DNA of 33,393 nt from a virus. Numbering within the stretch: the stretch's first letter is position 1; each line of letters starts with the position of its first letter. A model generated the notes under the pieces. That model did no database searches and was not told where the DNA came from. It saw nothing but the letters and a program-made list of their open reading frames with translations. Shown here one piece after another: positions 800-29,312 of this stretch. The DNA is taken from the IMG/VR virus record IMGVR_UViG_3300017818_000057, positions 1-33,393 of that record, one strand, 5' to 3'. The position numbers and the translations under genes were made by a program.

Positions 800-2866
800 T
801 TATGTAGATGGTCCAATGTACATGATATAGTTCATTACAACACTAGGACTAGTAACCTTAAACTTGGTACCAACCTCTTGATTGACATTGTCAATATTTT
901 CTGTTGTGAATGTTACATCTTCAACACCGCCTGTCCTGTCTATTCCGTACCCTGCTGTATTTCCTAACAAGTTGTTAGCTGCGGCACCAGTGTCTGATCC
1001 ATCGCCTGCATTTGTCATTGCTAGGTATTGATTTGCTGCATCACCTTCTAAACTGTGTTCGTGATTTGGAAGCTGATCCTTTGTAATCCAATCACTTTCT
1101 TGACCTGCTGTTGTGCCCATCACACTTGAAGCACCAAACGAATCACTTTCGCTTGCTTTATCATATACACGGTTTGTATCGATATAAGATACATCGTCAG
1201 GAACATGACCTAAAACATATCTACCTCTTAAATCTGGAACTTTAAAATAGAGTGCACTCGAGGGTGCTCCATATGTATCTCCAATCAAATCATAAAGTGA
1301 TTGATAGTTTGCTTTTACAAGTTCCTGTCCGTGACATAACACCCAAAGAACTTCTGATGCTGGAAGTTCCTCTGCTGCATATGGCATAATCATGCCTAGT
1401 GTAAAAGTTGGAACTGTGCTTACTAAAGTTGATTGCTTGACTCTTTTAATGTCTGTGCCTCTGGCAATCAATATATCGTCTGTGCCTTCGATAGTAGTTG
1501 ATAACGATTGTCCAGTGATAAATGCCTCACTAACAGTTGTTACAAACTCTTTTGTGCTAGTTCCGCTGCCGTCAAATGTAAACTCTGGTGCAGTAACATG
1601 ACCCGACATTCTAAATGTAGTAGGACTAGCTAGTTTTCCTGCAGAGGCACTTGTACCACTTATGTTACCGTTAACTGTACCAGTAAGATTACCAACAAAG
1701 TTATTTGCATACACATTATTATATTTTAAAGTAGTTGTACCTAAGTTATAAGAAAGATTATCTTTTGGGGTAATGTTTTTTGCTACAAGATTTTCTGCAA
1801 CATCTAAACTTCCGCCTAGATACATGTTTTGACTTACTCCAAGTCCTCCTGACACAACTAGTGCACCAGTGCTAAAACTTGTGCTACCGTTACCACTATT
1901 AACTTTCAAAGTACCACTTACTTGAGCATTGCCTGTAACATCTAATGCCTCTTGAGGTGCTTCGTTTGCAATACCTACTTTTCTGTCTGGTGTGATACGT
2001 ATTGCAGTGCGCACAGTTCCTGAATCATTAGTTTTAAAATCTAATGCACCATCCGTTGCTGTGTGTCTAATTTGTGCTGTGCTACCTGTGATACTTAATC
2101 TTAGTAGACCATTTTCTCCAATAGACAAACCAGTATTATCAATTATGTTTTGTGATTTTGTAAAGTTATTTGTAATGTCTTTTCTTGCAAAAGTAGCTGC
2201 TGAAATATTGCTATTTGAAATAACTAGATTTTCTGCTGCTGTTGCAACACCATAAAGTTTTGCATCGTTTGCAAGATTTATACCTTTTTTAAGAACATTT
2301 GAAACAGGAAATCCTGTTTCGGCCTTTTTTAAACTAAACTCAGTTTGTGCAGTGATTGCAACTGGAACATTGTTTACTCTGTCAATAACTACATTTTCAG
2401 TAATATTTGTAGAGTTTATAACTTCTTCAAACCTTGCACCAGTACTAGCACCTTCGCTATAGTCTGGACCAACTAAAATATAACCACTGCCTGTATAAAC
2501 ATAAACTTGACTATTTGCAGTATCAACCCAAATATCTCCAATAGTGCTAGAACTTGCTTCTGGTTCACTAGTTGCTTTTTTGATGCCTCCGGCACTTACC
2601 CACACTGCACCATCATATACTTTTAGTTGATCAACACCTGTTGTATTATCATACCATAGTTGCCCTTCAACAGGATTGCTAGGGCTTGATGCGTTAGCAA
2701 AGTTCTCTAGCATTTGAAGAAGATTTGTATTTAACAGTTCGCCAAAGTCGCTAAAGTTTCTACCTATTAATGTAATAGATGTTTCATCACTGTTTGTGGA
2801 GTTGTCATCGACAGTTATTGCTCCTTTGTTGGTGAAATCTGTAAATCTTACTTCATAGCCTGCCAT
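800..2866 (-). CDS. Tail fibre protein with phage tail-collar domain (gp12-like)
   Basis: This 688-residue virion protein is probably a short tail fibre or similar adhesin. Residues 1-240 form the LIGRN/GQLWYD domain shared with the downstream paralogue. Residues about 290-480 look like a fibre shaft, with the VGIANEAPQEALDVTGN motif common in trimeric fibres and Gly/Ser/Thr/Asn-rich beta repeats (VSGTLKVNSGN, VVSGGLGVSQNMYLGG, FVGNLTGTVNGNISGT). Residues about 487-555 match the phage tail-collar family: GMIMPYAA, WVLCHGQEL, YQSLYDLIGDTYG and FKVPDLRGRYVLGH. Downstream, QLPNHEHSL near residue 598 has the HxH arrangement that binds metal in the T4 gp12/gp37 tips. The protein ends in SPSVVMNYIMYIGPST, a typical collar-protein ending. 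A GAGGGG ribosome site lies inside the last codons of the upstream gene. Collar family membership is secure; the exact T4 equivalent is inferred. Confidence 0.88.
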   Translation of the reverse strand: MAGYEVRFTDFTNKGAITVDDNSTNSDETSITLIGRNFSDFGELLNTNLLQMLENFANASSPSNPVEGQLWYDNTTGVDQLKVYDGAVWVSAGGIKKATSEPEASSSTIGDIWVDTANSQVYVYTGSGYILVGPDYSEGASTGARFEEVINSTNITENVVIDRVNNVPVAITAQTEFSLKKAETGFPVSNVLKKGINLANDAKLYGVATAAENLVISNSNISAATFARKDITNNFTKSQNIIDNTGLSIGENGLLRLSITGSTAQIRHTATDGALDFKTNDSGTVRTAIRITPDRKVGIANEAPQEALDVTGNAQVSGTLKVNSGNGSTSFSTGALVVSGGLGVSQNMYLGGSLDVAENLVAKNITPKDNLSYNLGTTTLKYNNVYANNFVGNLTGTVNGNISGTSASAGKLASPTTFRMSGHVTAPEFTFDGSGTSTKEFVTTVSEAFITGQSLSTTIEGTDDILIARGTDIKRVKQSTLVSTVPTFTLGMIMPYAAEELPASEVLWVLCHGQELVKANYQSLYDLIGDTYGAPSSALYFKVPDLRGRYVLGHVPDDVSYIDTNRVYDKASESDSFGASSVMGTTAGQESDWITKDQLPNHEHSLEGDAANQYLAMTNAGDGSDTGAAANNLLGNTAGYGIDRTGGVEDVTFTTENIDNVNQEVGTKFKVTSPSVVMNYIMYIGPST

Positions 2867-2869
2867 TTT

Positions 2870-3481
2870 TTACCCCTCGTTAAATCCACTCAAACTTTGT
2901 ACACGCACAGTATAATCGATTTGTATCAGTCTGTTTAAACTTTTTTGTACTGGGTGGAAGATGACATGAGTAATCAATCTGCCTGTGCCACTAGAGCTAT
3001 AACTTTTTAATCCTAACTCGTCAAACACATATATACCATCTTGATTTGCTGATGTATCAAATGCGTCCTGACCTTCTGGCTCACCATAATCTAAAAGACA
3101 TGTGACTAAAATATCAGTATAGTTGGTTCCGCTAACATGTCTTATTTCGGTTTTGTTTCTAGTTGGATCAACATTGTTTACACTTCTATCATCAACAACT
3201 TTGTCAAATGTTTGATTATATAAAGTTGCATTTGTTCCGGTGCTATTAGGAGTTAGATATGTAATAATACCTGTTGGATCAACACTAGTACCGCCATTGC
3301 CAAAACTCATACTATTGATAAAGCCTTGTCCTTGATTGGCTAGACTTTCTGCTAAGGCTATACTCATGTTTTCGTAGTGAATAGCATTTCTTTTATTCAC
3401 ATATACATCGCCTGATTCTGGATCATGTATTTTTATGTGTCCTTCAACATGTATGCCGTTAATATCTTTTAAATCATTCAT
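2870..3481 (-). CDS. Putative virion structural protein, 203 residues, function unknown
   Basis: The frame lies between the giant structural gene (22-base gap) and the collar fibre (3-base gap), all in one direction, so it is almost certainly co-expressed with them. It starts MNDLKDINGIHVEGHIKIHDPESGD, followed by VYVNKRNAIHYENMSIALAESLA and then GFINSMSFGNGGTSVDPTG. The C-terminal half is predicted beta-rich, ending in LIQIDYTVRVQSLSGFNEG. There is no signal peptide, membrane segment or enzyme motif. The FGNGGT block recalls small structural proteins of marine T4-like phages; this is from memory and gives no function. An AAGG ribosome site (3494-3491) lies 9 bases before the ATG, with a late-like box further upstream overlapping the stop of the giant gene. 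It could be a fibre-attachment or baseplate-periphery protein. Confidence 0.7.
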   Translation of the reverse strand: MNDLKDINGIHVEGHIKIHDPESGDVYVNKRNAIHYENMSIALAESLANQGQGFINSMSFGNGGTSVDPTGIITYLTPNSTGTNATLYNQTFDKVVDDRSVNNVDPTRNKTEIRHVSGTNYTDILVTCLLDYGEPEGQDAFDTSANQDGIYVFDELGLKSYSSSGTGRLITHVIFHPVQKSLNRLIQIDYTVRVQSLSGFNEG

Positions 3482-3500: not shown

Positions 3501-3508
3501 TATTTATT
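3501..3508 (-). promoter_or_regulatory. Late-type promoter box AATAAATA before the 203-residue gene
   Basis: Read on the minus strand the box is AATAAATA followed by CAGTATAAGG, one mismatch from the T4 late box TATAAATA. It overlaps the TAA stop of the giant gene. The expected start about 6 bases downstream (near 3495) would leave the AAGG ribosome site just inside the transcript. In AT-rich DNA the box alone is weak evidence; the position in one of the few gaps supports it. Confidence 0.4.
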
Positions 3509-6500
3509 TAGGTAAGCTAATAGTTGCTCTACGCAAGAATTTAGATATTGGATTGTCCGAATCTCCTAAACTCTTTCCTGTATCGTTCCAAACTTTTCCG
3601 GTTTGACTTACGATTTTTATTTCTGTTCCTTCTACTGGTTCGTCTCTTAATAGTAGCACAGTTTCTTGTGTACTTCCATCACTGCTTATTCTAGTTTCTA
3701 AACTAAACTCAGCTTCAACTGTTGTATCACCTTCACTACTATCTAGTGCTAATGTTGGATTAAACACTGATATCTGGTTTTTTATAAGTTTTCTGCCTGC
3801 TACATAAACATCTATTTCATTAATATTTGAAACTATTCGATTTAACACAAACTGAGTGCTATCTACTGCCACTGCTTTTATAGTTTGTATTGTTGTTGTA
3901 TCTTGATAATCGATAGTTTCATTTGATGCTTGTCCATACAACTTGGTGCCTTCTTCGTACACATCTTTCACACCAGTGCCTAGTGTTCCTCTACGCAGTT
4001 GTGTAACAGTGTTATTTTTTATTTCAAAGTATTCAATGCGTTCACCTTGTATAAACAACACACCAGGTAAGTTTTTAGTTCTGTTTGGTTTATAAAGTCC
4101 TTCAACACTTTCTAGATATATTGTGTTATCATAATAGTTTAAAGGACTTTGTAGAATGTAACTATTGCCTTCATTCAAACGTTTATAATGAGTTCTACCC
4201 AACATGTCTCTAAATATTCTAAATCCAAACTTCGGATGAACAGGCTGTGCACCAAACTGTAAAATGTCAATGACATCGTCTTCGTTAGGTATATCTTTTA
4301 ATCTTACTGCTTTATAATCGTCATTAACAATATAGTCAACACCAGGTGTTAACAACGTTCCATTTTTGATTACCCATGCATAAGGTGTACCAATAATAGG
4401 ATCTGTTAACTGAACAACTCCTGCACTTAGCAAGTTTCTTCTTATGTATGTGTCGCTTGCTGCATTCACAGTAGTTGAGGTCACATTGTATGTATATCTA
4501 TTAAAGTTATTGACATCGTGATTACTAAACTGATATATTTCTATTTCTTCACCGCTACTTGGTGGTGTAGCAAATGACAAGTTATCACTTAGTATGTATT
4601 CAACACCTGAAACCATTACTTGAGTACTGTCTTCTCCAGCTACACTTACAATAAACTCGTTATCGGTTTGGAATGCATCTTTAATATCTTTTTGTATCGA
4701 TCTTAAAGTAATACAGTTATCAACTATCTTTTCAACAAGTCCAGTGTATTCAGTGCTGTCTGCTGCAAGCAGAGTTAATGTATCGCCTGTCTCTACAAAC
4801 TCGGTCATGTCTAAAACACTACTGTCTATGCTTTCAAACTGTACTTCAGTATCTACAAAGAAATATTCTGCTTCTTTAATAACAAATACACTGATTGTCG
4901 ATCCTTCTAGTGCAACGTCAGTTCTTAACAAATCAATCTTACAGTTTACTGGATCATAACTCCATGCATCATCAGCAAGTTGAGTCATTCCTTCAAAAAC
5001 CAATACGTCTTGTTGCTCAATAGCAGTGGTGTCTGCAAAGTTCCAAGCATCTAAGCTATACGAACGTGCATCAGTGATTTTAATATTAACACTATAACCT
5101 GGGTTTAAAATTTTGTTATTTGATTTTACAAGTAATCTATGAGAGAATGGCTGTGCATTAAATGGTACAGGAATATCTCCTGTAAACTTGTGATAATCAT
5201 TTTCTCCATCAGATTCAAAAGTATTATCAATAACAATCTGACTATAGGTTTGAGATTTACTGTTGTAAATTGTGTACTGAATATGATCGCCTTCTGTTAA
5301 CACTTCTGGTTCAAACTGTATTTTTACACGATTATCACTTTCAATAAGATTGTACGCATCGTTTTCAACTTGAACTACACCATTTACTGTAACTAGTGCA
5401 CCGCGATCATTATCCCACGATACAGAAGTAACAATACCTGTTGTACTACCATCAAATATTGTAGTTGCTGTATCTATTAATCCTGTACCATTCGTTCCGT
5501 AAGTGATGATTGCAAGCGTCTCTCCTACGTTGCTCGTACTATCATCAAATAATAAAACATTATTGTTCCAATCAATCGAATACCTTTCACTTGGTAATAT
5601 TACATCATCTAGTTTAACAATAACACCATCATTTGATTGCGGCAATCCAGGTAGTTTGTATTCGTCAGTGCTGTCGTTTTGTATTTTATATGTAGCGACA
5701 GCAATATTTGCAACACCATCACTGGCTCTAGTGTATACCTGTATGTCAAGTGTGTCAAGAACTTTTCCAGGCACCATTTCTTCAGGACCTTTTGCAGTAT
5801 TTTGTGTATAGAACCCGTCGCCGTCGACTGTAATATCGCCTGCTTCGATTCCAGTTGCAGTAGTATACGACAAATCTCCGCCGCTAAGTGCAGTATCATA
5901 TGTTGTAGCAACAGGTGTAAAGCTGCCATCACTTGTGCTTTTGCTGACAATAACTTTATCACCTGGTGCAGTGCTAATATCTGTTAAGTCAACTGTTACA
6001 CTTGCTGTGCTATCGTCACCTTCCAATGTCAACATTTGAGCATATTCGTTGTCTGCAACAGTACTGCCATCATATGCTGGATCATCTAGTCTATATATCT
6101 TCCAATCATCCGACTGTGTTTCACCTGCTACTTTTACAAAAACATTGTACTGATAACCAGTCTCCAAAGGCTTAGATAACACAAAGGTTTCTTCAAAAGT
6201 ACTGTCAGATGTTATTTCAAATATTTCATCTTCAAATGTGTTTACAAATGTGTCAAATCCTGTGCCTGCAAATCCACCAATATCAAAACCAGCATCGGTA
6301 CCAAAGTCAATGCTGTCATATATTGCACCATCATATTCAACACCAGTCATTAACTGTGCTAAGTCTTTTCCTAGCATACCTGTTGTTGGTGAATAATATT
6401 GTGTAATTCTATCTGCCGCACTTAACATAGAAATATCTTTTTTGTATTTGATTACAACTGCTGCATCTATACTAGGAGCGTTTAGAATATTGATATATCC

Positions 6501-9500
6501 TTGTTTTCTTTTATAACTTTTATCACTGTTTACATCATTTCCATATGTAAATTCACTTGATAATAGTTTTTTATCATCAACAAATACTTCAAATGTTTCA
6601 TTGTTAACATTCATAGGCCATTCTAGAGTAAACTTGTTTTTTGCACCTGTACCTGTAAATGTTTCAGTGGTGTCTATATCAGCAATATAAGTTTTTCCAG
6701 ATACCCTATCAAACTTCATAACCATATGAGTACTACGTACATTAGGATTGCCTAATATAGCACTTGCTGTTGCTGCAACGCCGTCATCTGCTAGATTACC
6801 TTCTATAGTAACTGTTGGTGCAGTATAATATTTTCCGCCTTTGTTTGTAATCTGTATTTCTTTTACACTTCCTCTTGACAAGAAGGCTTCGGCTGTTGTA
6901 CCATTATCTCCACTAACTATAACTTTTGGTGTTGACAAATAACCACTACCGCCATTTGCAACTTCAATACTAATCACATCATATTGATTATTATCAATCC
7001 AACTCTTGTAAGGATATGATTGGTACTTGTTATCAATATTTTCAATGCTATTATTTCGCATTACAGCATCACTGGTTTGTATTTCTTTTGTTACTTCGTT
7101 GTGATTTGGTGGTAAATCAAAGTCAGTTACTAGTGAACCAGTTGGATCAACCTTTTCATATGCACTAACATACTCTCTTATTTTTGTTTTGTATGGTTTT
7201 ACTTCGTTAACATAATCTTGATAACTTTCAAGGTTATCATTTTGATAACTTAGTTTTTGATCTAACCCTGACACATTGTGCTTGGCTTTTACAAAACTTG
7301 TTTTAAATGCCCAATCAACATTCGACTGTTCTGCAAATACATATCTCAATGATGCAAAGAAACATTTATTGTATTCATTATATAAGTTTGCAACAAAAAT
7401 ATCTTCTTTTAAAGCAGACAGAATGTTACGTAGTTCTTGTACAGGTTCTCTATCATAGAAACCACTATCGTAAATATTTGCATCATATCCACTGGTTTTG
7501 AAACTATAATCATATAATCTTGTGCTCAAAAGTATTGTTCCGTTTTCACGTCCGATAGTTTCATAGTTTACAGTGTAGTCTTCTACTAACTGGTCATCTA
7601 TTTTTTTCAATAATAACCAGCCTCCAGAACCTACATTTTCTATTTTAACAATATCACCAATATTTGTTGATAAGCCAAACAAGTTATATGTATAACTTGC
7701 AATATGGTTTATAGCTGTATTCGAATCGTACCCGGATGCATACCAATCTGCATAATCCCAGTATTTTGTAGTATCAAAGTTTTGGTTATTTGTTCTAATC
7801 CACTCTTTGTTTTGATAGCTGTAAATAGCCCATCTTCCGCCGATTGTTTCATCATTTTCTATCAATACAGAAAAATCTCTAACCACAAAATTTGTATCTG
7901 CTCCGTAATCAAACCCTTGGGCTAAAATAGTAACATCTACAACTTTACCAACACTATCAATAACTGTTTTAATACTTGCATTATATCCTGTGTCGCTGTT
8001 TATTTTTATAACAGGTGCATTTTTATATCCTCTGCCAGGATTAATAATGTTTGCTCCAGTTATTCTACCGTTGTCAATAACAGGCTCAATCTCTGCACTT
8101 ACAACTTTAGCAACTTCAACAAATCTTAATAAACTTGTAGAATCAGCAGTTGTATCAAACTGCCCTGAACTTGCAAGTGGTACTTCGTCTTTTTCTAAAA
8201 GTTTATCGATCACAAAGTTATCAACAATAGGATTTTGAATAAACACGCTGTTCACTCTTTCAACAAACTGTTTTACAGCTTCAAGTCTATTAATAAACAT
8301 GCTTTGTCTAGGGAAGTTTAAAACTCCTATTTGTTGTACACTAGGAACACTTGGATCTGGTACAGGTCTAACATTTTCGTCATATCCTACTAAACTATCA
8401 ACCCACTTTCGTTCTATTTCCGAATCTAGTTTAGTTGTAGCAAATCCTTCGCTTAACAACTGATATTCGTAATGAATATTATTTTTATTATCTTGATCTT
8501 TAGTAAAGCTAATATGCAAAATTGAATCTTTGCCATTTACAAAAGATGCAACGTTGTACAGTGCAAAACTAGAAGTGCTCAGTGGTGTAATAAATCTATA
8601 ACCATAGTCCTGTGGCGCACTAATAACTTTTGCAACATCGTCTGCACTTAGTTTTCTTATTCCATTTTCCGGAACAGTCAAAGTATTTTTTACCCAGTAG
8701 TAATAGTAGTTTGTAAATGATTGTTTAACTTCATCAAAAACAGGCTTACTGCTAAATGTGTTGTCATCATAAAGTGTAGTCCCAGTTATACCTTTTGCAA
8801 ACCCTTGAGCAGTGTTGGCAATCTCGTTCCATTCACTTGGTGTTAATGTTGTTCCTACCCATTCACAAACTTCTACTTCAGAGCTTGGTAATAACTTATT
8901 GAAATAAGCAGTCCTGTATGTGTTCGAATCTTGGTAAGGATTATACCACGATGCTTTACTTACATTCCACCATAATCTACCTACCTGTTCATCTGTCCAG
9001 TTAATACCACTGTCAACGATTGTGCTGACATTATCACTAGTTGTGTAGACTGCTGGGTCATAGAAAGTTTTATAATAAATTTCTTGCTCTGCAGGTCCAG
9101 GTATTTTTCCTAAACGAGGATCCACAAAATCTAAGTTAGTTATAATATCTTTGGTTTTCTTATCGTATATAAACACACGATTAATATTTGAAATATCAAT
9201 CTTTTCACTTTGCTGTACTAGTGTATTCCATGTGTTTGTGTTTTTTGCGATTCTAAAATCAGCGATAACACCTTTGTTTACATTTGTACTATCTAAGTAT
9301 TCGGGATATGTATCTGTATCAATTCTTTCGCCTTCTAGTGCAGGAACCATATTTTCAAATGCAACGTAAATATGATTATCTACAAAGTCAAAATAATCAA
9401 AGTTAAAGTTGCTAGTTTCTCTTAAATATTCAAGAGTTTCAGAATACACAAACTTGTTTGCTATTTCTTCAAATACAACTATGCCTCCGGTGCTGTCTTC

Positions 9501-12500
9501 TAAATATCCAAAAGCAGTATTTCCTGCATCAAAAATAGTTGTGTCATTATCAAAAATAGTTTGATATCTGTTGTCAATATTTTTACCAGAAACAGCTAGT
9601 TTGTTTCCGCTAAATTTCATGTTTTGACCAAATAGCTTGTCTTTACCCGAATACGGATTTTCTACAAGTTGATCGAGTGCAAATGCCTGCAAACCAGTGC
9701 CTGTTTTTTTGAAAACATAGACAGCACCGGTATCAGTCGTAGAACCATCATATTGCATTGCACTAACAGCAACTTTATCACCGTTATCATTAATAGCAAT
9801 ATTTTTTCCAAAACTTGTACTGTCTTCTATTTCTATTGTTTGAATATATTGCCAACGTCGATTAGGTGCTGCATATATTCCTACTTTTCTTTCAGGTGTA
9901 TTATCAGTGTTTACAGCAGCAAATACTAATACATCACCATGTTTGTTAACATCAAACTTTTCGCCTATACGAGAACCTGCATTAAATATACCTTGACTTG
10001 CTGCATTTAAACTTTCTGCATAGTTAGGTACATACCCGGTATGCTCTGTATAAGTTGCATTTTCACTTAGCTCTTCCCACTTGGTTGCATCCGTTGGATC
10101 TGCTTGTCCAGGTGTCAAGTTATCTAATGCTTTATAAAACTTGTAATCATATAATGCTATATCATCTTTGTTGTATGCATACGTTGCACTATACTCGCCT
10201 TTGTAGTCTCTGTTAGTTGTATACTGCCAACCATTTATATCATCATATCCTACAAAGTAAATCTTTCCTGCGTCTGCACCTGGTGCACCAATAAACAGTT
10301 TTAATCCTGTATCTGGATTGTTTCTAAACTGCACACTGTATCCAAACTCTTCTTCAGAAACTGGGTTTGGACTTGTGATTATTTGATCTAAAACATAGTA
10401 TTGTAAATCGCTTCTTTTAAAAATATAAACACAACCTTGACTATTTAATCCACTTGCTAATCCGTCTGCGTCTGCAGGTATCATGTAAGCAGGTTCAAAG
10501 TCTTGACTTAAACTGTTAATAGTACTTCCATCTTGTCCAACTTTGTAGTCAATATCGTTAATGTTTTTTTTGGCTTTCCACAGCACCCCTCTGTCTGCAA
10601 CAATGTCATTAAAGAAAATATTTGCACTGTCTAAACTATAAAGGTCGCCTACAAACTTTGTTTTAACATTTGAGGCTGTTGGTGCACCAACTGCAATATA
10701 CTTTGCATCATCACTTATTGCAATACTAGAACCAAATCCACTATTGTCATCATGATAATCTACATCTGGTGTTAAATCATAAATGTCTGTTTTTGTAAAT
10801 GATTCATTTGTTCTATTCCAAATCTTTACAGCACCAAGACTGCTTGGATTTTGATATAGTGAAGTTCCTACTGCAAGATGTGTATTTGTTGCATTACTTG
10901 CAAAAGATGTTAAAAAGTTTACATCAGTTTCATATTCATTGTTTGTTTCTTCTTGTAAACTCCAAGATTTGTTATGCTGATAAACAGACCAATCACCGTT
11001 GCCGTCTGCATCTAACCAAACTTTATCCTGCCAATAAGTTTTTTTGTTTTTTGCCTCTGTATTCCAGGTATCAACATCTGCATATCTTTTTGCAATAAAT
11101 CTCGAAATACCAGGAATACTACTATCGTTGAACTGTTCTACATCAACATCTTTTTCCGTTTGAACTGTAAACGATTTGCCTTCAACATTTATTACTTTAA
11201 AGAAGCCTCTGCCTTCTTGTACACTTGCATATACACCAATCACATCGTCTTTTTTGATGTTATGGTTATATGTATCTACAGTTATTGTATATCCAGGAAC
11301 GCCTTGTAACTTATCGTTATCAACTTCTAATCTTGTCACTTTTAAATCAGTGTCAACATTTTGTAAAACTGTCCAAGATTGTTTTATTTTTTGCACCCAG
11401 ATATTATCGCCTATTTTTACGCTTTCAATATCTAGTTTTGCTAAATCGTCATAAGATGCAACACTATAGTCTACATCTTTGTCTCTAACATAACCAGCAT
11501 CTCTTGTGTATATTTCATTATCATTTCTAACAGTAAATGGTTTATGGTTATAACCTAAAGGTTTTGCATATACTTCAAAATCTGCTATTTCAAATGTAAG
11601 ATCAGTTCTTGCTGGTGTTTTATTTTGAACTAGTTCAACTATTTGTGGTTCTGTCTTAAACTTTTTATCGTCTAAAACATACTCAACTTCTTCTATATTA
11701 TCTATTGCACCGTATTGTCCTAGACGTAATGCCCATTCTTCAAAAAACTCAATACTATCTGCATTTGCACTACTCAATGGATCAAATAGTTTTGTAAGTG
11801 CATTTTTTGTTCCTTTATCTTGGATAAATCCTTGATAAAACTTGTACTGACTTGTTGCATCTGTAATAATATTATTTAGATAATCTCTTTTTTGGTAACC
11901 TATTAAGTGCTGACCTAATCTTTGTTGCTCCGCATCAAAGTTATCAGTGTCTAAATCGTAGAAATCAGCAAACTGTTTTGCTTTATAATCCCAGTTAGGA
12001 AATAGTTGGTCTTGTGGTCTACTGCTTAATAGTGTCCATTGGCTACTGTCAAAAGTTTCTCCGCTTGTATGACCAGTTACATTAGAATAGTAAAACTGTT
12101 TAAACTTTACTAGATCGCCAACAGTATAATCAGTGTTTGGTGTCCATTCTACTACTTTTGCTTCGTCATAGAAGAATCCTGGAACATTAAGTGTACCATC
12201 CCAAAAATCTGTCCTATACCCTACAACTTTTATTCTTTCTTGTTTGTATCCAGGTATTGTGTCGTATATAACATCATTGAATACTGTTTCGTTGTCTATT
12301 AGAATAACATGTTCGGTTTGTATTAAAGGTAGTTTAGCAAGGTAAACACCTTCGCCTAATGACTGAACATTAAAGTCTGTGTTGTCTCTAAACAGGTTTA
12401 CAAATGCTGGTTCAATTTTTTGTCCGTTTCCACCTAACAAGTTATAGTTGTAAAACGGTTCGTAAATATCATCAACACCAAAATAATCTCTAAAGAATGT

Positions 12501-15500
12501 AAGTTTATTTGCAACAGGACTTGTGCTGATTACTGCACCTTGATCCCAGTTTTGTGTGTTGAAAAACAAAAACTCTTTAATACAAAGTGTCATATCTTCA
12601 AGAACACCTGCATCGCTTACGTTATTAAAAATAAATCCTTGTTGTTTTAAGTATGCTTCATAGCCACACATAAAATCTACTACTTCTTGAACGCTAGAAA
12701 AATATGCTCCATAATATATTTTTTGTGGATTTGAATAATCAAATACTTTTCTTATCTGTGCTCCAATGCCGCCAACTTCAGGCAACTTGGATAGTCCAAC
12801 AAAGTTTTCGTTATCAAAACTATTACCGCTGGTATGTGTAATAGATGCTCTATAGTATCTACCTGAATAAAATACAACTGTGCCTTTAGTGTACAGTTGA
12901 TCTGTACCCCAGTTTACATAACTTTCACTAATACCGCCAACTGTTATTCCAGGATCGTTAAACTGCGGAATATGAGGATAATAGTTAAACACAGGATTTT
13001 CAATATCGTAACCTCTAATAGTAAAACCAGTTGATTCGCCATCTGCATTTTTTAGTTGTTCAATGATCATTCCCGAAATAGAAGGTATATCTTGTACTGA
13101 ACTTTTGTTTAAGAATATTTTGTAGTTTTCATCTGGTACAAACACACTTGTTTTATTTAAAGGACTTCTGCTATCGAGTACCAGTTTGATTTTATCTTTA
13201 TCTGCAAAACCACCTAATCTTATGCTTAGTTGGTTTTTAATCTTTGCAAGTTCATCTTTATAATCAGAAAGTTTTGTATCAATACGAGTGCTAATATTTG
13301 CAGTTACATAGTTTATAATGCCTGCTGTCAAATATTGCATATCACTTTTTATCATAGGCACAACAATGTCTTGCAGCTTTACACGCTTTTGTGTATCACT
13401 CCACACAATATTTCCAACAATATCTTTTGTGATTCTACTTCTGTCAAATCCTAAACCAAAAACTTTTGCAGGACTTAATAGCATCCAAGCTCGTAATAAA
13501 CTAAATCTAAAATCGCTGCTTCTTCTCCAAGCTGTTTCTGCAGGACTTTGATCTCCATAAACAAAAGGATTTTTTACAGTTTTTAATAGTGTTCCTTTTG
13601 CCAAACCACTAGCAGTTGGATCTAAAAGTCTGCCATATTGATCAGTAGGAATATGTTTTGTTAAGTTGGTTCTTTTAAATTTGTCTTTTACAACAATAGG
13701 TTTGTTTGGCTCTCTAACAATACCTTTTTCTAAATCCTGCCATAAAACAAAGTTATCTCCTGTATAAGGTGCTGGACCATAAACTTCATTCCACCAAGTT
13801 GGCTTTACAGTAAATCCTAACATTTCCCAAGGATGTGTATGCGGTCTGTCTGTATCGTAGTATGTTTTATAAACATTTCTCCACGAACCTTTTAGAGTTT
13901 TATCAGCAAAGTCGTTGGTACTACTATAGTTATAAGTAAATCCATTACCTTCGATTGTATTATTTTTTGTATAATCAAAATTGTTTGCAAAAGATAACCA
14001 CTCGCTAAAACCTCCAAGCATTAATGCATCAATGTCATTTTTACTAAAGTTAGTTGTTCTATCGTATCCTGGTATAAAATCATATACATTAAGTATGTCA
14101 GCATCATATTTTACTTTTATATTATTGTATATTCTTTTTTCAAGTTCTAATAAAAGATCGTCTCTATAATCGTCATATCCAACTGTAATACTACCATCGT
14201 GTCCTTGAATAACAGTTTTTGATTCTAAATAGGTGTTATCAATATATTTCTCTGGTTCGTATGCAGGTAATAATCCCAACTTCACAGGAGTAGGTGCAAC
14301 AAAACTTCCATTTGTGTTTTCATACTCAAATATTTTAATAACATCATTCTGTACTAAATCTATACTAATATACACAAACCCGTCACTGAAAGTATAATCT
14401 TTATTGTGTACTAACTGCACATCATTTCTGTAAACAAGTACTGCTTTATTACTTAGAGAATCTAATGTAAATGTTTTCTTTAACGCAATATATGTCGGTC
14501 CATTAAAATCTATATCATGTTGTTCAACTGTATATCCTCCAAAAGGAACCATATCAGATGTATAAAAATTTTGTGTAGGACTTTTATCTTTGTTTATTTC
14601 TTGTAAAATAAAATCAACATGTTCTTTTACACTACCAGAAAAAGCATTTTTTTCTGCTTCTCTTAAGAAGCTTCTTATAAATGTATTATAACTTTTCCTC
14701 GCAACATCTAAGCCTTTAACAGCATTGTATTGTTTTGAAACAAGATGGAATAATGGAAGATTTAGAGGACCTTCGTGTTGCATTAATAATCTGCCATACG
14801 GACTTAGTGGGCCTAGATCTCTCAAGTTATTAACACCAAGTGCATCGCCTGCAAACTCTGGATGGAAATCAGTTATAGTTTTAACATGATCATTTACTTC
14901 TCCTAAAGTAAATGTTGTTATATTTTCATTTAATGGATTTCTTTCATAGTTAAGAGGTATCTCATACACACCATTATTATTTTTTGGCGCATTACTATAA
15001 CATTTTACAACAACAAGTTCTGCTGATTCAAGATCAGTGTCAAGTGTGACAAATGCTAATCCATTTCTTTTTGTAATAGTGTAATCATTTCTTTTTGTTC
15101 CATTGACAAAAAGTTTGATAAACAAATCGTCTAAATTACCTGCATTATTAAAACAATCAATAGGAAAGTTGTTTAACATATTATTGTATTGTAATATAAC
15201 CGGCTGGATAGTTTGAGCACTACTTTTTGTCCAGGCATTTTTATATTCGAAAGTATCGCCAGTGTAGTTGTATTTTTTTAAAAATAATACGTCACTGTTA
15301 ACAGTAAAATCGTTTTGTAGTTCGTCTTGATAGGAAATAGTTTCAGATAAAAGATTAAAATCAAAAACAATATCGCCGATATTATTAATGTTTCTATATT
15401 TTAATGGAAAACCTAGAATACTATCATTAGCACCGGTGCCCTGAGCATAACTGAATACTTTATTTCCTCTAAAACTACTTGTAGGATAATAAACAGTATC

Positions 15501-17279
15501 ATTTAAGTTTGTTTCATTTTTATCAAATAAATCAAATAATGGTGCTTGATTAACTTTTGTTTTTTCTTGACTTAGATTCCATTTATCTCCGTCATAGAAA
15601 AACATTTTTCCTTTGTATTCTGTTCCACCAGTAACTAGTACTGTGTCGCCTTCTGCAGGATCTGAATCAGTTGATGGAACAAGACTAATCTGAGTTCTAC
15701 CATTATGTTCTATAAAGTTTACAATATATATTTTTCCATTTACAAAACTATCAGGATCTGCTGTAAACATTACACGCATACCGTTAGTTACTTCGACACC
15801 ATCAATACTGTAACCCAAGCTACCTTCTATTGTACTAAAAACATCAGTTGTGAATGTATCAACAAGATTGATATTTTGTTTTGTTTTATTTCCGTGATTC
15901 CAAAGTTTCAGTCCTGCATCAAACTCAATAATAGGACGTTTGCCTCTTGAAACTTCGTCTAACTCAGGATCTGCATTGTTCGCTTCAGCTGATGCAATAA
16001 TCACATCTCTGTGGAACCAACGATTATATCTACTCCAAGGATTTCTGTCAGCACTGCCTCTATTAATCACAATATAATCTTGTACAGCTGGATAACTATC
16101 AGCATTTTCAAATGGCACATCGTCAAAGTTGAACGTGTCAAAAGGAACTTCAATTTCGTCAGTAAATACAGCAGGAACTTCAAGATCTTGCTGATTGATT
16201 ATTCTGATGCTATCTCCTACACCTTCAATAAACCATTCACCATCTGCATACTGTTCGGGTGTAACACTGCCGGCAAATCTAACTTTCATACCATTTGACA
16301 ACTTAATACCGTTGCTTGTTGTGTATGTTTTTTTACCTAGTATTTCTTCTTCAACATTGATTTCGCTGTTTTCTGTGATATCTTTACTTAACACAATACC
16401 ACTTGTATTAATATCTGTTTCGCTTATGTAATATAAATCTTCAGGTACATCTACAGGTACAGTCCATTCAATAACACCATTTTCAATGTAATCTAAATCA
16501 GTTTCTGCTAGTTTTCCTTCGCTATCATAGACAAACTTTTTAATACCTTTTGTGTATATCCTTGAAAGATTATTTTGTTCTATTTCATTTGTAGGATTTA
16601 AATCTTCAACATTTCTATTATAAGTAAATGCAAACCCGTGCCCAGGTGCATTGATTTCAAAACGATATGTTTGTTCTTTGTAAAGGGTGATCGTTGGATT
16701 ATTAGTAAATCCATTAGGTGTAAACACATAAGTTGTGTTGTCATCTTGATTACTAGTAGTAATCTTATATGTACTTTGTACGCTTTTACTTTGTCCAACT
16801 ACTGTTATACGTTTTGGCCCTAGTGGTAACCAATAATATTCTCTAAAGTTTGTAAACTTATCCCAATCAATATGGCTATCTAAACTATAACTTTGTTGCT
16901 TATTCAAAATATTATGATTTGTTGTATCCACACCATAGTACTTTAAGGCTCCTAAATAATCAATATAATCACCAAAAAACGTCACATTATCTAAAGTATC
17001 TTTAATAACAGTGCTTGTTTCAAACTGATAATTTTCTCTTGTTTCTGTTACATCTGGATAAAATGCATCGTCAACTTTTGTTGCTCTTGCATATCTTCTA
17101 CCTGCAAAACTATTCAGTTTTTCAAGTGTTCCAGAACTAATCATCTGATCTATACTAGATTGTAGAAACTTTTTGTTTGTATCAGTTCTAAAATACTTAG
17201 GAAGAAACTCACTAGCTGTTCTTGTAAAGTTTTCGTCTGTAGGAATAGGTGATTCGTTTTGATTTTTTTCGTATGCCAT
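3504..17279 (-). CDS. Giant mosaic virion (baseplate/tail-fibre) structural protein, 4591 residues
   Basis: One uninterrupted frame of 13.8 kb directly follows gene 6, with a 1-base TAATG overlap and a GGAGG ribosome site 6 bases before the ATG. Visible parts in order: an N-terminal segment (FLPKYFRTDTNKKFLQ; FREYYWLPLGP); a cupredoxin-like segment about 188-295 lacking most metal ligands; two NGMKVRF/NGMRVMF modules near 328 and 500; three aromatic carbohydrate-binding-like modules near 1453-1483, 1708-1743 and 2361-2390; FG-GAP-like propeller blades about 2110-2720; GGSGY/GGKYY beta repeats near 3075, 3435 and 3476; a helical block about 3290-3371 (WAFKTSFVKAKH, VNEVKPYKTKIREYV); a series of beta repeats about 3560-4510; and a block near 4407-4441 (GERIEYFEIKNN, LRRGTLGTG). 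No signal peptide or membrane segment is seen. In T4 genes 7 and 8 follow gene 6, so it may take a gp7/gp8/gp10-like wedge or fibre role. That is inference; I find no clear gp7 homology. Virion location is very likely, detailed function unknown. Confidence 0.85.
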   Translation of the reverse strand: MAYEKNQNESPIPTDENFTRTASEFLPKYFRTDTNKKFLQSSIDQMISSGTLEKLNSFAGRRYARATKVDDAFYPDVTETRENYQFETSTVIKDTLDNVTFFGDYIDYLGALKYYGVDTTNHNILNKQQSYSLDSHIDWDKFTNFREYYWLPLGPKRITVVGQSKSVQSTYKITTSNQDDNTTYVFTPNGFTNNPTITLYKEQTYRFEINAPGHGFAFTYNRNVEDLNPTNEIEQNNLSRIYTKGIKKFVYDSEGKLAETDLDYIENGVIEWTVPVDVPEDLYYISETDINTSGIVLSKDITENSEINVEEEILGKKTYTTSNGIKLSNGMKVRFAGSVTPEQYADGEWFIEGVGDSIRIINQQDLEVPAVFTDEIEVPFDTFNFDDVPFENADSYPAVQDYIVINRGSADRNPWSRYNRWFHRDVIIASAEANNADPELDEVSRGKRPIIEFDAGLKLWNHGNKTKQNINLVDTFTTDVFSTIEGSLGYSIDGVEVTNGMRVMFTADPDSFVNGKIYIVNFIEHNGRTQISLVPSTDSDPAEGDTVLVTGGTEYKGKMFFYDGDKWNLSQEKTKVNQAPLFDLFDKNETNLNDTVYYPTSSFRGNKVFSYAQGTGANDSILGFPLKYRNINNIGDIVFDFNLLSETISYQDELQNDFTVNSDVLFLKKYNYTGDTFEYKNAWTKSSAQTIQPVILQYNNMLNNFPIDCFNNAGNLDDLFIKLFVNGTKRNDYTITKRNGLAFVTLDTDLESAELVVVKCYSNAPKNNNGVYEIPLNYERNPLNENITTFTLGEVNDHVKTITDFHPEFAGDALGVNNLRDLGPLSPYGRLLMQHEGPLNLPLFHLVSKQYNAVKGLDVARKSYNTFIRSFLREAEKNAFSGSVKEHVDFILQEINKDKSPTQNFYTSDMVPFGGYTVEQHDIDFNGPTYIALKKTFTLDSLSNKAVLVYRNDVQLVHNKDYTFSDGFVYISIDLVQNDVIKIFEYENTNGSFVAPTPVKLGLLPAYEPEKYIDNTYLESKTVIQGHDGSITVGYDDYRDDLLLELEKRIYNNIKVKYDADILNVYDFIPGYDRTTNFSKNDIDALMLGGFSEWLSFANNFDYTKNNTIEGNGFTYNYSSTNDFADKTLKGSWRNVYKTYYDTDRPHTHPWEMLGFTVKPTWWNEVYGPAPYTGDNFVLWQDLEKGIVREPNKPIVVKDKFKRTNLTKHIPTDQYGRLLDPTASGLAKGTLLKTVKNPFVYGDQSPAETAWRRSSDFRFSLLRAWMLLSPAKVFGLGFDRSRITKDIVGNIVWSDTQKRVKLQDIVVPMIKSDMQYLTAGIINYVTANISTRIDTKLSDYKDELAKIKNQLSIRLGGFADKDKIKLVLDSRSPLNKTSVFVPDENYKIFLNKSSVQDIPSISGMIIEQLKNADGESTGFTIRGYDIENPVFNYYPHIPQFNDPGITVGGISESYVNWGTDQLYTKGTVVFYSGRYYRASITHTSGNSFDNENFVGLSKLPEVGGIGAQIRKVFDYSNPQKIYYGAYFSSVQEVVDFMCGYEAYLKQQGFIFNNVSDAGVLEDMTLCIKEFLFFNTQNWDQGAVISTSPVANKLTFFRDYFGVDDIYEPFYNYNLLGGNGQKIEPAFVNLFRDNTDFNVQSLGEGVYLAKLPLIQTEHVILIDNETVFNDVIYDTIPGYKQERIKVVGYRTDFWDGTLNVPGFFYDEAKVVEWTPNTDYTVGDLVKFKQFYYSNVTGHTSGETFDSSQWTLLSSRPQDQLFPNWDYKAKQFADFYDLDTDNFDAEQQRLGQHLIGYQKRDYLNNIITDATSQYKFYQGFIQDKGTKNALTKLFDPLSSANADSIEFFEEWALRLGQYGAIDNIEEVEYVLDDKKFKTEPQIVELVQNKTPARTDLTFEIADFEVYAKPLGYNHKPFTVRNDNEIYTRDAGYVRDKDVDYSVASYDDLAKLDIESVKIGDNIWVQKIKQSWTVLQNVDTDLKVTRLEVDNDKLQGVPGYTITVDTYNHNIKKDDVIGVYASVQEGRGFFKVINVEGKSFTVQTEKDVDVEQFNDSSIPGISRFIAKRYADVDTWNTEAKNKKTYWQDKVWLDADGNGDWSVYQHNKSWSLQEETNNEYETDVNFLTSFASNATNTHLAVGTSLYQNPSSLGAVKIWNRTNESFTKTDIYDLTPDVDYHDDNSGFGSSIAISDDAKYIAVGAPTASNVKTKFVGDLYSLDSANIFFNDIVADRGVLWKAKKNINDIDYKVGQDGSTINSLSQDFEPAYMIPADADGLASGLNSQGCVYIFKRSDLQYYVLDQIITSPNPVSEEEFGYSVQFRNNPDTGLKLFIGAPGADAGKIYFVGYDDINGWQYTTNRDYKGEYSATYAYNKDDIALYDYKFYKALDNLTPGQADPTDATKWEELSENATYTEHTGYVPNYAESLNAASQGIFNAGSRIGEKFDVNKHGDVLVFAAVNTDNTPERKVGIYAAPNRRWQYIQTIEIEDSTSFGKNIAINDNGDKVAVSAMQYDGSTTDTGAVYVFKKTGTGLQAFALDQLVENPYSGKDKLFGQNMKFSGNKLAVSGKNIDNRYQTIFDNDTTIFDAGNTAFGYLEDSTGGIVVFEEIANKFVYSETLEYLRETSNFNFDYFDFVDNHIYVAFENMVPALEGERIDTDTYPEYLDSTNVNKGVIADFRIAKNTNTWNTLVQQSEKIDISNINRVFIYDKKTKDIITNLDFVDPRLGKIPGPAEQEIYYKTFYDPAVYTTSDNVSTIVDSGINWTDEQVGRLWWNVSKASWYNPYQDSNTYRTAYFNKLLPSSEVEVCEWVGTTLTPSEWNEIANTAQGFAKGITGTTLYDDNTFSSKPVFDEVKQSFTNYYYYWVKNTLTVPENGIRKLSADDVAKVISAPQDYGYRFITPLSTSSFALYNVASFVNGKDSILHISFTKDQDNKNNIHYEYQLLSEGFATTKLDSEIERKWVDSLVGYDENVRPVPDPSVPSVQQIGVLNFPRQSMFINRLEAVKQFVERVNSVFIQNPIVDNFVIDKLLEKDEVPLASSGQFDTTADSTSLLRFVEVAKVVSAEIEPVIDNGRITGANIINPGRGYKNAPVIKINSDTGYNASIKTVIDSVGKVVDVTILAQGFDYGADTNFVVRDFSVLIENDETIGGRWAIYSYQNKEWIRTNNQNFDTTKYWDYADWYASGYDSNTAINHIASYTYNLFGLSTNIGDIVKIENVGSGGWLLLKKIDDQLVEDYTVNYETIGRENGTILLSTRLYDYSFKTSGYDANIYDSGFYDREPVQELRNILSALKEDIFVANLYNEYNKCFFASLRYVFAEQSNVDWAFKTSFVKAKHNVSGLDQKLSYQNDNLESYQDYVNEVKPYKTKIREYVSAYEKVDPTGSLVTDFDLPPNHNEVTKEIQTSDAVMRNNSIENIDNKYQSYPYKSWIDNNQYDVISIEVANGGSGYLSTPKVIVSGDNGTTAEAFLSRGSVKEIQITNKGGKYYTAPTVTIEGNLADDGVAATASAILGNPNVRSTHMVMKFDRVSGKTYIADIDTTETFTGTGAKNKFTLEWPMNVNNETFEVFVDDKKLLSSEFTYGNDVNSDKSYKRKQGYINILNAPSIDAAVVIKYKKDISMLSAADRITQYYSPTTGMLGKDLAQLMTGVEYDGAIYDSIDFGTDAGFDIGGFAGTGFDTFVNTFEDEIFEITSDSTFEETFVLSKPLETGYQYNVFVKVAGETQSDDWKIYRLDDPAYDGSTVADNEYAQMLTLEGDDSTASVTVDLTDISTAPGDKVIVSKSTSDGSFTPVATTYDTALSGGDLSYTTATGIEAGDITVDGDGFYTQNTAKGPEEMVPGKVLDTLDIQVYTRASDGVANIAVATYKIQNDSTDEYKLPGLPQSNDGVIVKLDDVILPSERYSIDWNNNVLLFDDSTSNVGETLAIITYGTNGTGLIDTATTIFDGSTTGIVTSVSWDNDRGALVTVNGVVQVENDAYNLIESDNRVKIQFEPEVLTEGDHIQYTIYNSKSQTYSQIVIDNTFESDGENDYHKFTGDIPVPFNAQPFSHRLLVKSNNKILNPGYSVNIKITDARSYSLDAWNFADTTAIEQQDVLVFEGMTQLADDAWSYDPVNCKIDLLRTDVALEGSTISVFVIKEAEYFFVDTEVQFESIDSSVLDMTEFVETGDTLTLLAADSTEYTGLVEKIVDNCITLRSIQKDIKDAFQTDNEFIVSVAGEDSTQVMVSGVEYILSDNLSFATPPSSGEEIEIYQFSNHDVNNFNRYTYNVTSTTVNAASDTYIRRNLLSAGVVQLTDPIIGTPYAWVIKNGTLLTPGVDYIVNDDYKAVRLKDIPNEDDVIDILQFGAQPVHPKFGFRIFRDMLGRTHYKRLNEGNSYILQSPLNYYDNTIYLESVEGLYKPNRTKNLPGVLFIQGERIEYFEIKNNTVTQLRRGTLGTGVKDVYEEGTKLYGQASNETIDYQDTTTIQTIKAVAVDSTQFVLNRIVSNINEIDVYVAGRKLIKNQISVFNPTLALDSSEGDTTVEAEFSLETRISSDGSTQETVLLLRDEPVEGTEIKIVSQTGKVWNDTGKSLGDSDNPISKFLRRATISLPK
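3765..6590 (-). repeat. Degenerate protein-level beta repeats in the C-terminal part of the giant protein
   Basis: The encoded residues (about 3560-4505) contain seven copies of a 35-45-residue unit with the pattern V-x-V-x-G/D-x-x-x-L, then a Y/F strand, an I/V-x-L/F strand, and G-x-x-I-x-I-x-x-Y/F. Copies begin FEVFVDDKKLL, VIVKLDDVILP, ALVTVNGVVQV, DVLVFEGMTQL, TQVMVSGVEYI, AWVIKNGTLLT and IDVYVAGRKLI. Two more copies lie far upstream in the gene (KLFVNGTKRND near residue 720, VLVYRNDVQLV near 943). The copies are diverged at the DNA level, so this is old protein duplication, not a recent DNA repeat. Confidence 0.6.
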
Positions 17280-20200
17280 TAATATCCTCCACCTACTATT
17301 ATATTAGTGGTGCTTTGTATTCCAGCTGTTGTGTTTGAAGTATCTGTTACTAGATTTCCTTGAGATTTGAGTTTTTCTGCTGTATTTGCTGTAATGATTT
17401 CAACGTCTGCCACAGTTGCGCCGCTAATAAACAACTCATCGCTTTCACTGTTTACTTCAAATAAACTACCAAATGCACTAGTGCTATCATTAGGAACAAT
17501 AACAATACTGGTAATATCAGGTGACAAACTGTTCATTATATATGCAGAAAGTTCACTCCAGTAAAATGTTTCTCCAAAGTCCCAGTTTTCTAAAGCAAAA
17601 TATTGATTTACTGCTTCAATAACTCTTGACTTAATATCATTATCATTTGTAACACGCTCTTTTGATTTTACTATTTTAAATGTTGCTTTCAATGCATTTT
17701 CTGCCTTATCGCCAAACAGTACTTTGTACTTTACAGGATGGTATATTACTTCATCGCTGATACTTTTGATTGCATTGATTGATTCGCCGTAATCTCTGTA
17801 AAGACTATCGCTGCTTTGTGGCAATGGCATTGATGCCACATTACCAATCAAATATTGTCTAAATAATGTATCATATGTTTTTGTTAATACAAAAAGATCT
17901 ATAATATTACTGCTGCTAGGATCTATACGTGCATTTTCATCACTGGCATGTACATATTGGAACTTTAGATTATCACGTCCTCTGAACGCTTTATATCCAG
18001 TGAGTTCTGTAACTTTTCTTGTACTGCTATTTGTAGAATAAAAAGTATCATTATTTGCATCGTACCAAACACCGTCGACTGTTGCATCTGGAGTACCAAC
18101 AGTAATAACATCATCGCAATATTGGTAAAACTCGCTATCTGCATAGGCAACTTTTTTCAAAAAGATATAATCTGTATCTCCAAATGTAACAATCTTTTCA
18201 AATATTTCTGGATTGTCTACAACACCGTCGTCGTCATTATCAAAGAAAATAACTTCAACTTTTTTACTATCTACATAACCGTTTAAGTCTCTAAACTCGC
18301 TGCTAATAGCCCAATCATAGTCAACTGTAAAAGGAGATGTTGTTCCTTCACTGTACAAATCTCTGTTGATATTTAAAACAGAAACTTTGTCTCTTATGAT
18401 CTTTCCTGTTTTACTATCATAGATTTTTTTGTTATTATCAAAATAGAATCTTGTTTGACTTTTGCTTTCAAAAATATATCTTATTGTACGATAGGTTATA
18501 TTGTAGGTGTCTCCGTTAGTTTCAAATAAGACAACCCAACTAGAATCTAGTTTTTGCCCAGTAACGTCACCTGCCAGACCTAGACTAAAATCTCCTAAAA
18601 CATTTAAATCTTCTTGTAAGATTACTTTCCATTGCCTGTCAACAAGATCGTAACGCAATCCAAATGTTTTATAAGAAAATACTTGATCAATCATTTGATT
18701 TTTTACATCATCAATAATATCTCTAACATATTTAATTTTTAAACTATTTAAAACAGCATCAGTTGGCACAAAATCATCTAAAAGTATACCTCCAAGTCCT
18801 GCATCTGTTACACTTGTTCCTGTATCGTAAACATTTATAACTTTAGTCCATATTTCTGTTTTGTCTCCTAAGTTAGCAGGAGTGCCAAACACTATTTTAT
18901 TATCTTTGTCAAAATAATATCCTTCAGGCGGAGTAAACTTAACCAATGCACCAGGCTCTACGTATTTTAATGGCCCTGATGTTGCGGTTGAAACTGCAAA
19001 GTTTATATCTCCATCAGTGATGTAACCAGAGCTAGACGAAGAATCGTATGTTTCTTGATTCCATTTTAGATTTAATTCAGTGTAGTTTTGCTCAGTAAAC
19101 TCGCTTAAATAAAAGTTTCTAATATTATTATCAGCTAATATGCTTGTTATTTTGTTGTTAATAATAGCTTCGATATCTGTTCGTGTTAAAAAATCAAATG
19201 CATCAACTTTGTTAATAGTTTCTTTATAAAGAATACCATCATCAGCAAATAGATTTGTTGTGCTATATTTTCCTGTAGCATCAGTCAAATCATAATATCT
19301 ATTAATACCGCTGCTGGTTCTATTAATAGATTTAATTTTTATAATCTCTTGACTTACACCTAAAGGTCCTACATTATAATCTTCACCTGTAATAAGTCTG
19401 TTTTGTGTATAATATGTACTTGGTGCGTTTGTTTTAATACTGTCTGTTGATTCTGTGCTTGTAGCTGTGTATACAGGAGAAGCAAGATCTGCAACAATGA
19501 TCATTGTTTCAACTCTGCCTTTTGAACTTGTATAAGGAATACGCAAAGTAACATTTTTTATATCAGCAGGTAAAATGTCAAAATCTCTATTTGCACTTCT
19601 ACGATAATAAGATCTAAATGTGCCTTTTGGAAGTTCTCCAAATGTTCCATCACTGAATATTAGACTTATTCTGTCTTCGCTACGTGTCAATACACTGAAT
19701 ATGTTTCTAATACCTTTAGAAACACTGTTATAGATTATATTGTTGCCTTCTACTGCTTCAACTTTTGTCCATAAATCTTGTTCTACATTGCTTTCATTTA
19801 GTCCATATAACCAGACATCATTATTGTTTACATTTGTAATATTAATATCAATAGTTTGATTTGGTGTTGGCAAGTTTACTGTAAAATCTCCTTTTTGTAA
19901 ACTACCTTGAACAAAGTTTACAAAGAATCCACTTTGTGTACTTCCTGGTCCTTGTCCGTTATCTTTGTATAGAATACCAAAAGTATTTCCTGGTAATGGC
20001 GGTTCTTCTACAATAGAGCCATCTTGTATGTCTGCACTTACAACTTCAAACTCTAAGTCTGCACCATTCACACTTGAGTTAAATGTGAATATTGGTAAAA
20101 TACCATTTGCAACATTTACTTTGTATTTTTCTGTGGGTATGCCGGCAACATTATCAAGTTTGTTTGGTGTACCAAATCTATTGATTGTATTCAATGATGC

Positions 20201-20734: not shown

Positions 20735-21178
20735 TTAAAAGATGTTGTTTCTTGAATCAAAAGTAAAGCGAAGTTTTTCGCTAATATTATAGTCAACAAA
20801 TGTTAGTTCTGCATAAATCTGTATACCGTATTCAAAGCTATCAACTGTTATGTTGTTTGCTGATACACGAGGATCGTAGTTTATAATATTGGTTACATTT
20901 TTAACAATAGCACTTTTTAAAGCATCTGTCAACGGTTCAAATATAACATCCCAAATAATAGTTCCAAACTCCGGCTGTTCTAACTTTTCTCCTAAACGTA
21001 TATGAAAATGATTAACAATATCTTGTTTGATTAATGCAATATCATTTAAAACAAAATCTTTTGAGTTTGGATCAACTGTACTCAAGCCTCTATAGCTCCT
21101 ATTTACAATAGGATTATTTTTGTATCTAGGATTGTTAATCTGTAGATTTTTATAAAGATTTTTTTCTAAAGTGCTCAT
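20735..21178 (-). CDS. gp25: Baseplate wedge protein gp25 (GPW/gp25 family)
   Basis: The 147 residues are close to T4 gp25 (132). The family core is clear: KDFVLNDIALIKQDIVNHF, IRLGEKLEQPEFGTIIWDVI, FEPLTDALKSAIVKNVTNII and NYDPRVSANNITVD, the last matching the E-P-R-V/I motif of GPW/gp25 proteins with Asp in place of Glu, then a beta C-terminus (IYAELTFVDYNISEKLRFTF). gp25 joins the sheath to the inner baseplate wedge with gp6 and gp53 and is one of the most conserved parts of contractile machines. The only ribosome site I see is AGGA at 21195-21192, 13 bases from the ATG, so initiation may be weak or coupled to the preceding gene. Gene 6 follows after 51 bases. Confidence 0.95.
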   Translation of the reverse strand: MSTLEKNLYKNLQINNPRYKNNPIVNRSYRGLSTVDPNSKDFVLNDIALIKQDIVNHFHIRLGEKLEQPEFGTIIWDVIFEPLTDALKSAIVKNVTNIINYDPRVSANNITVDSFEYGIQIYAELTFVDYNISEKLRFTFDSRNNIF

Positions 21179-29238: not shown

Positions 29239-29249
29239 GCTGAGTCTCC

Positions 29250-29262
29250 TATAGTATTTAGT
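29250..29262 (-). promoter_or_regulatory. Late-type promoter for the baseplate cluster
   Basis: The minus strand reads ACTAAATACTATA, matching 10 of 13 bases of the extended T4 late consensus TATAAATACTATT. It is the only late-like box on this strand in the divergent region. A start about 6 bases downstream would fall at or inside the AGGAG site (29250-29246), giving a very short leader, so the true start may differ or another promoter may be used. Confidence 0.45.
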
Positions 29263-29295: not shown

Positions 29296-29312
29296 CAATC
29301 TTAGGAGCACAT

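Follow-up and report, generated by a model that had tools for sequence, protein, structure and literature searches.

In contractile tails the wedge around gp6 acts as the switch, and the locus studied here raises the question of what a single chain of several thousand residues, encoded directly after gp6, is doing at that place. The DNA analyzed (the window) is a 33,393-base virus record from IMG/VR. The giant gene is one open reading frame (3504..17279, minus strand) that encodes 4591 amino acids (~518 kDa), with an ATG start and without an internal stop. As stated in the sequence-only reading of this DNA, it takes up more than 40% of the window (13.8 of 33.4 kb), the window itself covering just part of a larger phage genome. 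That reading also described a single intact 13.8-kb frame coupled to gp6 by TAATG, which could be read directly: on the coding strand the junction is ...GGATATTAATGGCA..., where the gp6 stop codon TAA overlaps the ATG of the giant. The minus strand of the window carries a baseplate gene cluster, which extends from a gp53-like protein to a tail-collar protein and includes the giant:

28067-28366, minus strand: gp53-like protein
Listed between the gp53-like and hub/lysozyme genes, minus strand: 785-aa virion protein
22275-25712, minus strand: hub/lysozyme protein
Listed between the hub/lysozyme and gp25-like genes, minus strand: 356-aa protein
20735..21178, minus strand: gp25-like wedge protein (phrog_261 / phrog_43)
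17279..20683, minus strand: gp6-like baseplate wedge protein, 1134 aa (phrog_10646, 1.4e-296; phrog_219, 8e-18)
3504..17279, minus strand: giant virion protein, phrog_10938 family, proposed gp7-position baseplate wedge scaffold
2870..3481, minus strand: conserved small protein after the giant (phrog_11259)
800..2866, minus strand: separate tail-collar protein downstream of the giant (Collar PF07484, 6e-14; weak Gp10_C PF21939, 0.036)

In the hub protein, VgrG-like (DUF2345) repeats occur alongside a Phage_lysozyme2 domain and an extra C-terminal part. At 29239-29312 the coding strand switches between the baseplate operon (minus) and genes for a late sigma factor and SbcD/SbcC-like proteins (plus), an arrangement that is the same in RaK2 and GAP32.

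The giant gene is real, intact and under selective constraint. A complete frame that was 100% identical was found in an independent contig (L003), and two further contigs carried the frame at 78% identity over residues 1-4591. Compared with the 78% relative, dN/dS was 0.05-0.15 in every 300-residue bin, these values being rough since dS was high. Distinct complete relatives of similar length were also present in the retained IMG/VR loci (n = 52; 2833-5207 aa, median 4597). The shortest complete frames (from 2833 aa) came mostly from loci with frame changes. At three loci (L121, L138 and L141) the giant frame was broken by frame changes between neighbouring matching pieces, which may be assembly errors or real disruptions.

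The giant matched PHROG 10938, annotated as a virion structural protein, with 1050.9 bits in four stretches covering most of the chain. A tblastn search with residues 720-1723 gave hits in at least 59 records of phages, almost exclusively jumbo phages, and RaK2, PBECO4, GAP32, PA5oct, Atu_ph07 and their kin were among the family members; a megablast search of the phage records with the giant gene gave no match. Two profile scans of IMG/VR each yielded more than 520 confirmed relatives, with more than 590 related stretches in total. Judged by these matches and by its length, the giant is an ordinary-length member of a common, already catalogued family of giant proteins of very large phages. At 4591 aa it is nevertheless longer than the members from isolated phages (3138-4555 aa). 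The closest predicted model in BFVD, the uncultured Caudovirales 'YHYH domain-containing protein' A0A6J5L0K2, covered residues 1-1190 at 45% identity (E 0); it is a model only, of an uncultured-phage protein whose function is undescribed. No functional description of the family was found in the literature on RaK2, its adsorption complex, Atu_ph07 and MIJ3.

At all 140 IMG/VR loci where this could be checked gp6 lay immediately upstream of the giant, and TAATG was present in 93 of the 106 distinct gp6/giant junctions. The phrog_11259 gene followed at the 3' side in 27 of 29 loci. Among annotated phages, the order gp25-gp6-giant was found in RaK2 (giant of 3326 aa), GAP32 (3341), PBECO4 (3333), Kaldavass (3339), RAS14 (3138), XacN1 (3313), Vibrio phage 2.275.O (3771), PA5oct (3857), Atu_ph07 (4449) and Phosso (4555). 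The phrog_10938 members RaK2 gp465, PBECO4 gp538, GAP32_230, PA5oct gp355 and Atu_ph07 gp180 are homologous to the giant over most of the chain and likewise come directly after gp6. An exception was Salicola phage SCTP-2 (L007, L016), in which the giant gene is ~92 kb from gp6. There, unlike in the other relatives, it adjoins another very long ORF of 9,291 bases.

Evidence that such proteins are part of the particle comes from two relatives. Mass spectrometry of phAPEC6 virions identified gp245 (381.88 kDa) with 17 unique peptides and 7.6% coverage, and its gene adjoins that of gp244, a 'baseplate wedge' protein (PMC7247149). From its size and its position beside the wedge protein, gp245 is inferred to be a member of the phrog_10938 family. 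PA5oct gp355 is marked ESI-MS/MS in its annotation. On these data from phAPEC6 and PA5oct, the relatives are regarded as virion proteins. An established family, virion proteomics in relatives and the giants that also follow gp6 in cyanophages (see below) all speak against the idea that the giant is peculiar to this phage.

The chain could be divided into conserved blocks, a variable region and a series of beta modules:

16788..17279, minus strand: conserved N-terminal block, residues 1-164 (alignment A2), in which AlphaFold2 placed helices 22-25 and 33-47 as a short helical hairpin
16377..16787, minus strand: cupredoxin-like beta-sandwich without copper ligands, residues 165-301 (AlphaFold2, Foldseek, VIA)
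14991..15185, minus strand: jellyroll, residues 699-763 (profile family of 920-988; iterative HMM E 2.3e-12)
14316..14537, minus strand: jellyroll like the CBA120 TSP4 XD2 docking domain, residues 915-988 (VIA)
13410..14327, minus strand: family-wide conserved block, residues 985-1290, with 33 invariant columns (alignment A1; >590 IMG/VR relatives)
12822..12914, minus strand: CBM5/12-like module, residues 1456-1486 (Pfam, slightly below cut-off)
11610..12782, minus strand: highly conserved block, residues 1500-1890 (alignment A3), which holds YKFYQGFIQDKGTKNALTKLF
12024..12146, minus strand: second CBM5/12-like motif, residues ~1712-1752 (motif search)
9210..10736, minus strand: FG-GAP beta-propeller, residues ~2182-2690, in the most variable region
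7080..9212, minus strand: second conserved core region, residues 2690-3400, including a helical segment near 3280-3317
6747..6974, minus strand: GxGY module like domain I of the T4 sheath protein gp18, residues 3436-3511 (VIA), common to a cyanophage giant
6432..6686, minus strand: XD2-type jellyroll, residues 3532-3616, resembling TSP4 XD2 and T4 gp10 171-275
4254..5081, minus strand: further jellyroll-profile copies, residues 4067-4134 and 4296-4342 (iterated profile, E 1.9e-3 and 1.8e-10)

Among complete relatives, conservation was high in residues 1-1900 and 2700-3400 and low in 1900-2690. Insertions near residue 2245 averaged ~150 residues, and the length of the variable region was bimodal (~590-830 or 1,180-1,480 aa). 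AlphaFold2 modelled residues 1-1190 from 70 sequences with a pLDDT of 82 and a pTM of 0.75; for residues 2690-3880 (pLDDT 72, pTM 0.39) single domains were used and the domain arrangement was disregarded. Searches of PDB sequences by phmmer and profiles, with the whole chain and blocks A1-A3, gave nothing relevant. Matches of sialic-acid lyases to block A2 (E 0.02, PDB sequences) were taken as chance.

Several folds named by the sequence-only reading were recovered. The cupredoxin-like segment at residues 165-301 resembled rusticyanin (Foldseek E 1.6e-4; VIA Z 9.6, rmsd 2.1, 96 aligned), and its description as degenerate was confirmed because the type 1 copper ligands of the Cys-His-Met loop were absent in the window giant and in all 147 sequences. 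Copper binding by this segment was rejected on the same ground. One relative (L087) has an additional cupredoxin-type segment at giant residue 3598 in which, unlike the degenerate N-terminal one, the ligand motif is intact (YYYCINHSGMGG). A propeller-like block had also been recognized correctly: FG-GAP_2 scored 27.5 bits in the window giant (cut-off 23), and FG-GAP repeats occurred in seven of eight relatives tested, reaching 63 bits and E 2.8e-17. The propeller region is missing in RaK2-type members of the family. Carbohydrate-binding-like modules fared less well in the window, where CBM5/12 remained weak at 24.7 bits and did not reach the Pfam cut-off of 26.2, but the cut-off was exceeded in two relatives (L118 and L148). 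The gp6 homologue of Vibrio phage 2.275.O (L012:18903-22766) is annotated as a CBM5/12 protein, and such modules may thus occur in gp6 itself.

The many beta repeats noted earlier turned out to include one jellyroll module that recurs at least four to six times. By VIA, residues 915-988 were similar to TSP4 XD2 (7rfv 187-250; Z 8.7, rmsd 1.9, 64 aligned), as were residues 3532-3616 (Z 8.3, rmsd 1.5, 64 aligned), which also resembled T4 gp10 (Z 6.3). XD2-type domains in TSP4 and gp10 serve to dock other trimeric tail proteins (PMC8825819). The likeness is structural only; sequence profiles searched against PDB sequences gave no match to TSP4 or gp10. The giant shares a fold with T4 gp10 and with XD2-XD3 of CBA120 TSP4 in at least two modules, without a sequence-profile match and without the gp9/10 N-terminal domain (T4_gp9_10_N, PF07880), for which there was no Pfam hit in the giant and none in eight complete relatives. 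The GxGY module at residues 3436-3511 matched 3foa_C (VIA Z 5.9, 24% identity) and, by BLAST, the giant of cyanophage S-SM1 (1.4e-9).

Position alone would make the giant a counterpart of T4 gp7 (1032 aa), which it exceeds more than fourfold in length. The earlier remark that clear gp7 homology is lacking was borne out: T4 gp7 profiles (phrog_964, Gp7 domains) had no match in the giant, hhalign of 400-residue pieces along it against a 26-sequence gp7 profile gave none above 1% probability, and the N-terminal block compared by hhalign with T4 gp7 and with the N-termini of the cyanophage proteins stayed below 1% probability. In eight complete giant-bearing genomes the profiles of T4 gp7, gp8, gp9/10-N and gp11 were silent, while the gp6 profile was positive in all eight. 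To judge from these profiles, gp7, gp8, gp9/10-N and gp11 are thus lost, replaced or changed beyond recognition in giant-bearing phages, unlike gp6.

Within the block of residues 1500-1890, YKFYQGFIQDKGTKNALTKLF resembles the gp7 motif FYxxKGxxxSxxFLFKxL, so that an FYxxKGxxxS motif may be shared in addition to the position after gp6. The piece containing it ranked first of ~70 against the gp7-core profile, and none of 200 column-shuffled profiles attained its score on that piece; hhalign gave only 4% probability, and two of 16 shuffled profiles reached the score at some place in the chain. The motif is suggestive of descent from gp7, but is not proof.

Giants are also encoded directly after gp6 in cyanophages S-SM1 (SSM1_102, 6180 aa, L018:7822-26364) and P-SSM2 (PCMG_00114, 5195 aa, L019:9013-24600). 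Since the T4 gp7 profile found the FYxxKGxxxS region inside both (E 1.4e-5 and 8e-5), they look like enlarged gp7 proteins. Like the window giant they are single giant frames at the gp7 position, with GxGY/gp18-domain-I-like and jellyroll modules, but these cyanophages keep a separate gp8 (S-SM1 also gp9), unlike the giant-bearing relatives. Overall homology between the window giant and the two cyanophage proteins was rejected, only repeat modules being common. Pelagi- and cyanomyophages have been described as lacking T4 gp7, with a VrlC protein appearing as substitute (PMC7029224).

We therefore propose that the giant is probably the gp7-position subunit of the tail baseplate wedge in a jumbo T4-related phage, enlarged to ~4,600 residues. 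The wedge core of a contractile tail consists of two gp6 chains and a single gp7-type chain, joined via N-terminal helical hairpins (PMC10457771). Residues 1-164 of the giant are a candidate for the gp6-binding element of this core bundle, the two modelled helices being of low confidence (pLDDT 53-67 in residues 1-60). The N-terminal block and the conserved block of residues 1500-1890 would bind the two gp6 chains in the manner of gp7. The remaining chain would run outwards as an arm of jellyrolls and sandwiches to which fibres, spikes or collar proteins attach, and would make up a part of the periphery for which T4 uses gp7, gp8, gp9, gp10 and gp11. The fast-changing propeller would be exposed and may contact the host surface or other components of the virion.

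It had been suggested that one polypeptide replaces several wedge and fibre parts. That several roles of the wedge periphery are taken over by one chain is plausible because the giant carries docking modules of the gp10/TSP4 type, and the position at the gp7 site and the silent T4 profiles in eight relatives agree with this. Replacement of all fibre parts is disfavoured, since a separate collar/Gp10_C-like protein is encoded downstream (800-2866); parts of the gp10/gp12 type have probably not all been absorbed, and the collar protein may be one docked partner of the giant. A stronger form, in which one chain has absorbed the roles of gp7, gp8, gp9, the N-terminal part of gp10 and gp11, so that the entire wedge arm would consist of six 0.5-MDa copies that include docking jellyrolls for several fibre types and an exchangeable propeller for host contact, seems rather unlikely.

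According to another interpretation the giant is a peripheral appendage on the baseplate, an adhesin or fibre scaffold, and another, unrecognized protein performs the gp7 role. The undetected gp7 homology, the presence of a propeller, CBM-like modules and jellyrolls, as is usual in surface or docking proteins, and the separation of the giant gene from gp6 in SCTP-2 are consistent with this. However, the best-conserved parts are residues 1-1900 and 2700-3400 and not the surface-type modules, translational coupling to gp6 is nearly universal, and there was no other gp7 candidate among the assigned proteins of the baseplate operon in the window. This interpretation is therefore considered unlikely. 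Taken as a pure host-contact structure, the long appendage put forward in the sequence-only reading fits only the variable propeller region, and not the conserved two thirds of the chain.

The chain might also be a polyprotein that is synthesized in one piece and later cleaved into a number of wedge and fibre proteins, as its length, its modular build and the lack of separate gp7, gp8, gp9 and gp11 would allow. This is considered improbable: phAPEC6 gp245 appears as a single product of 381.88 kDa with 17 peptides, which does not itself prove integrity, and neither a protease site nor a fused protease was noticed. An assembly or annotation artefact fusing separate genes, to which the frame changes in a few related loci could point, has a negligible chance of being correct and was ruled out by the independent genomes, namely the 52 distinct complete frames and the 3138-4555 aa versions in isolated phages, and by a dN/dS of ~0.1 along the whole giant.

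If the giant is a wedge subunit as proposed, aquatic and jumbo phages of a very widespread clade appear to assemble their gp6 wedge around a giant chain. Deciding between an enlarged gp7 and a scaffold distinct from it would reveal how complexity builds up in baseplates and at which points modules for host range are inserted. The alignment, the domain map and the calibrated absence of gp7, gp8, gp9, gp10 and gp11 make that question directly testable in relatives that are grown in the laboratory.
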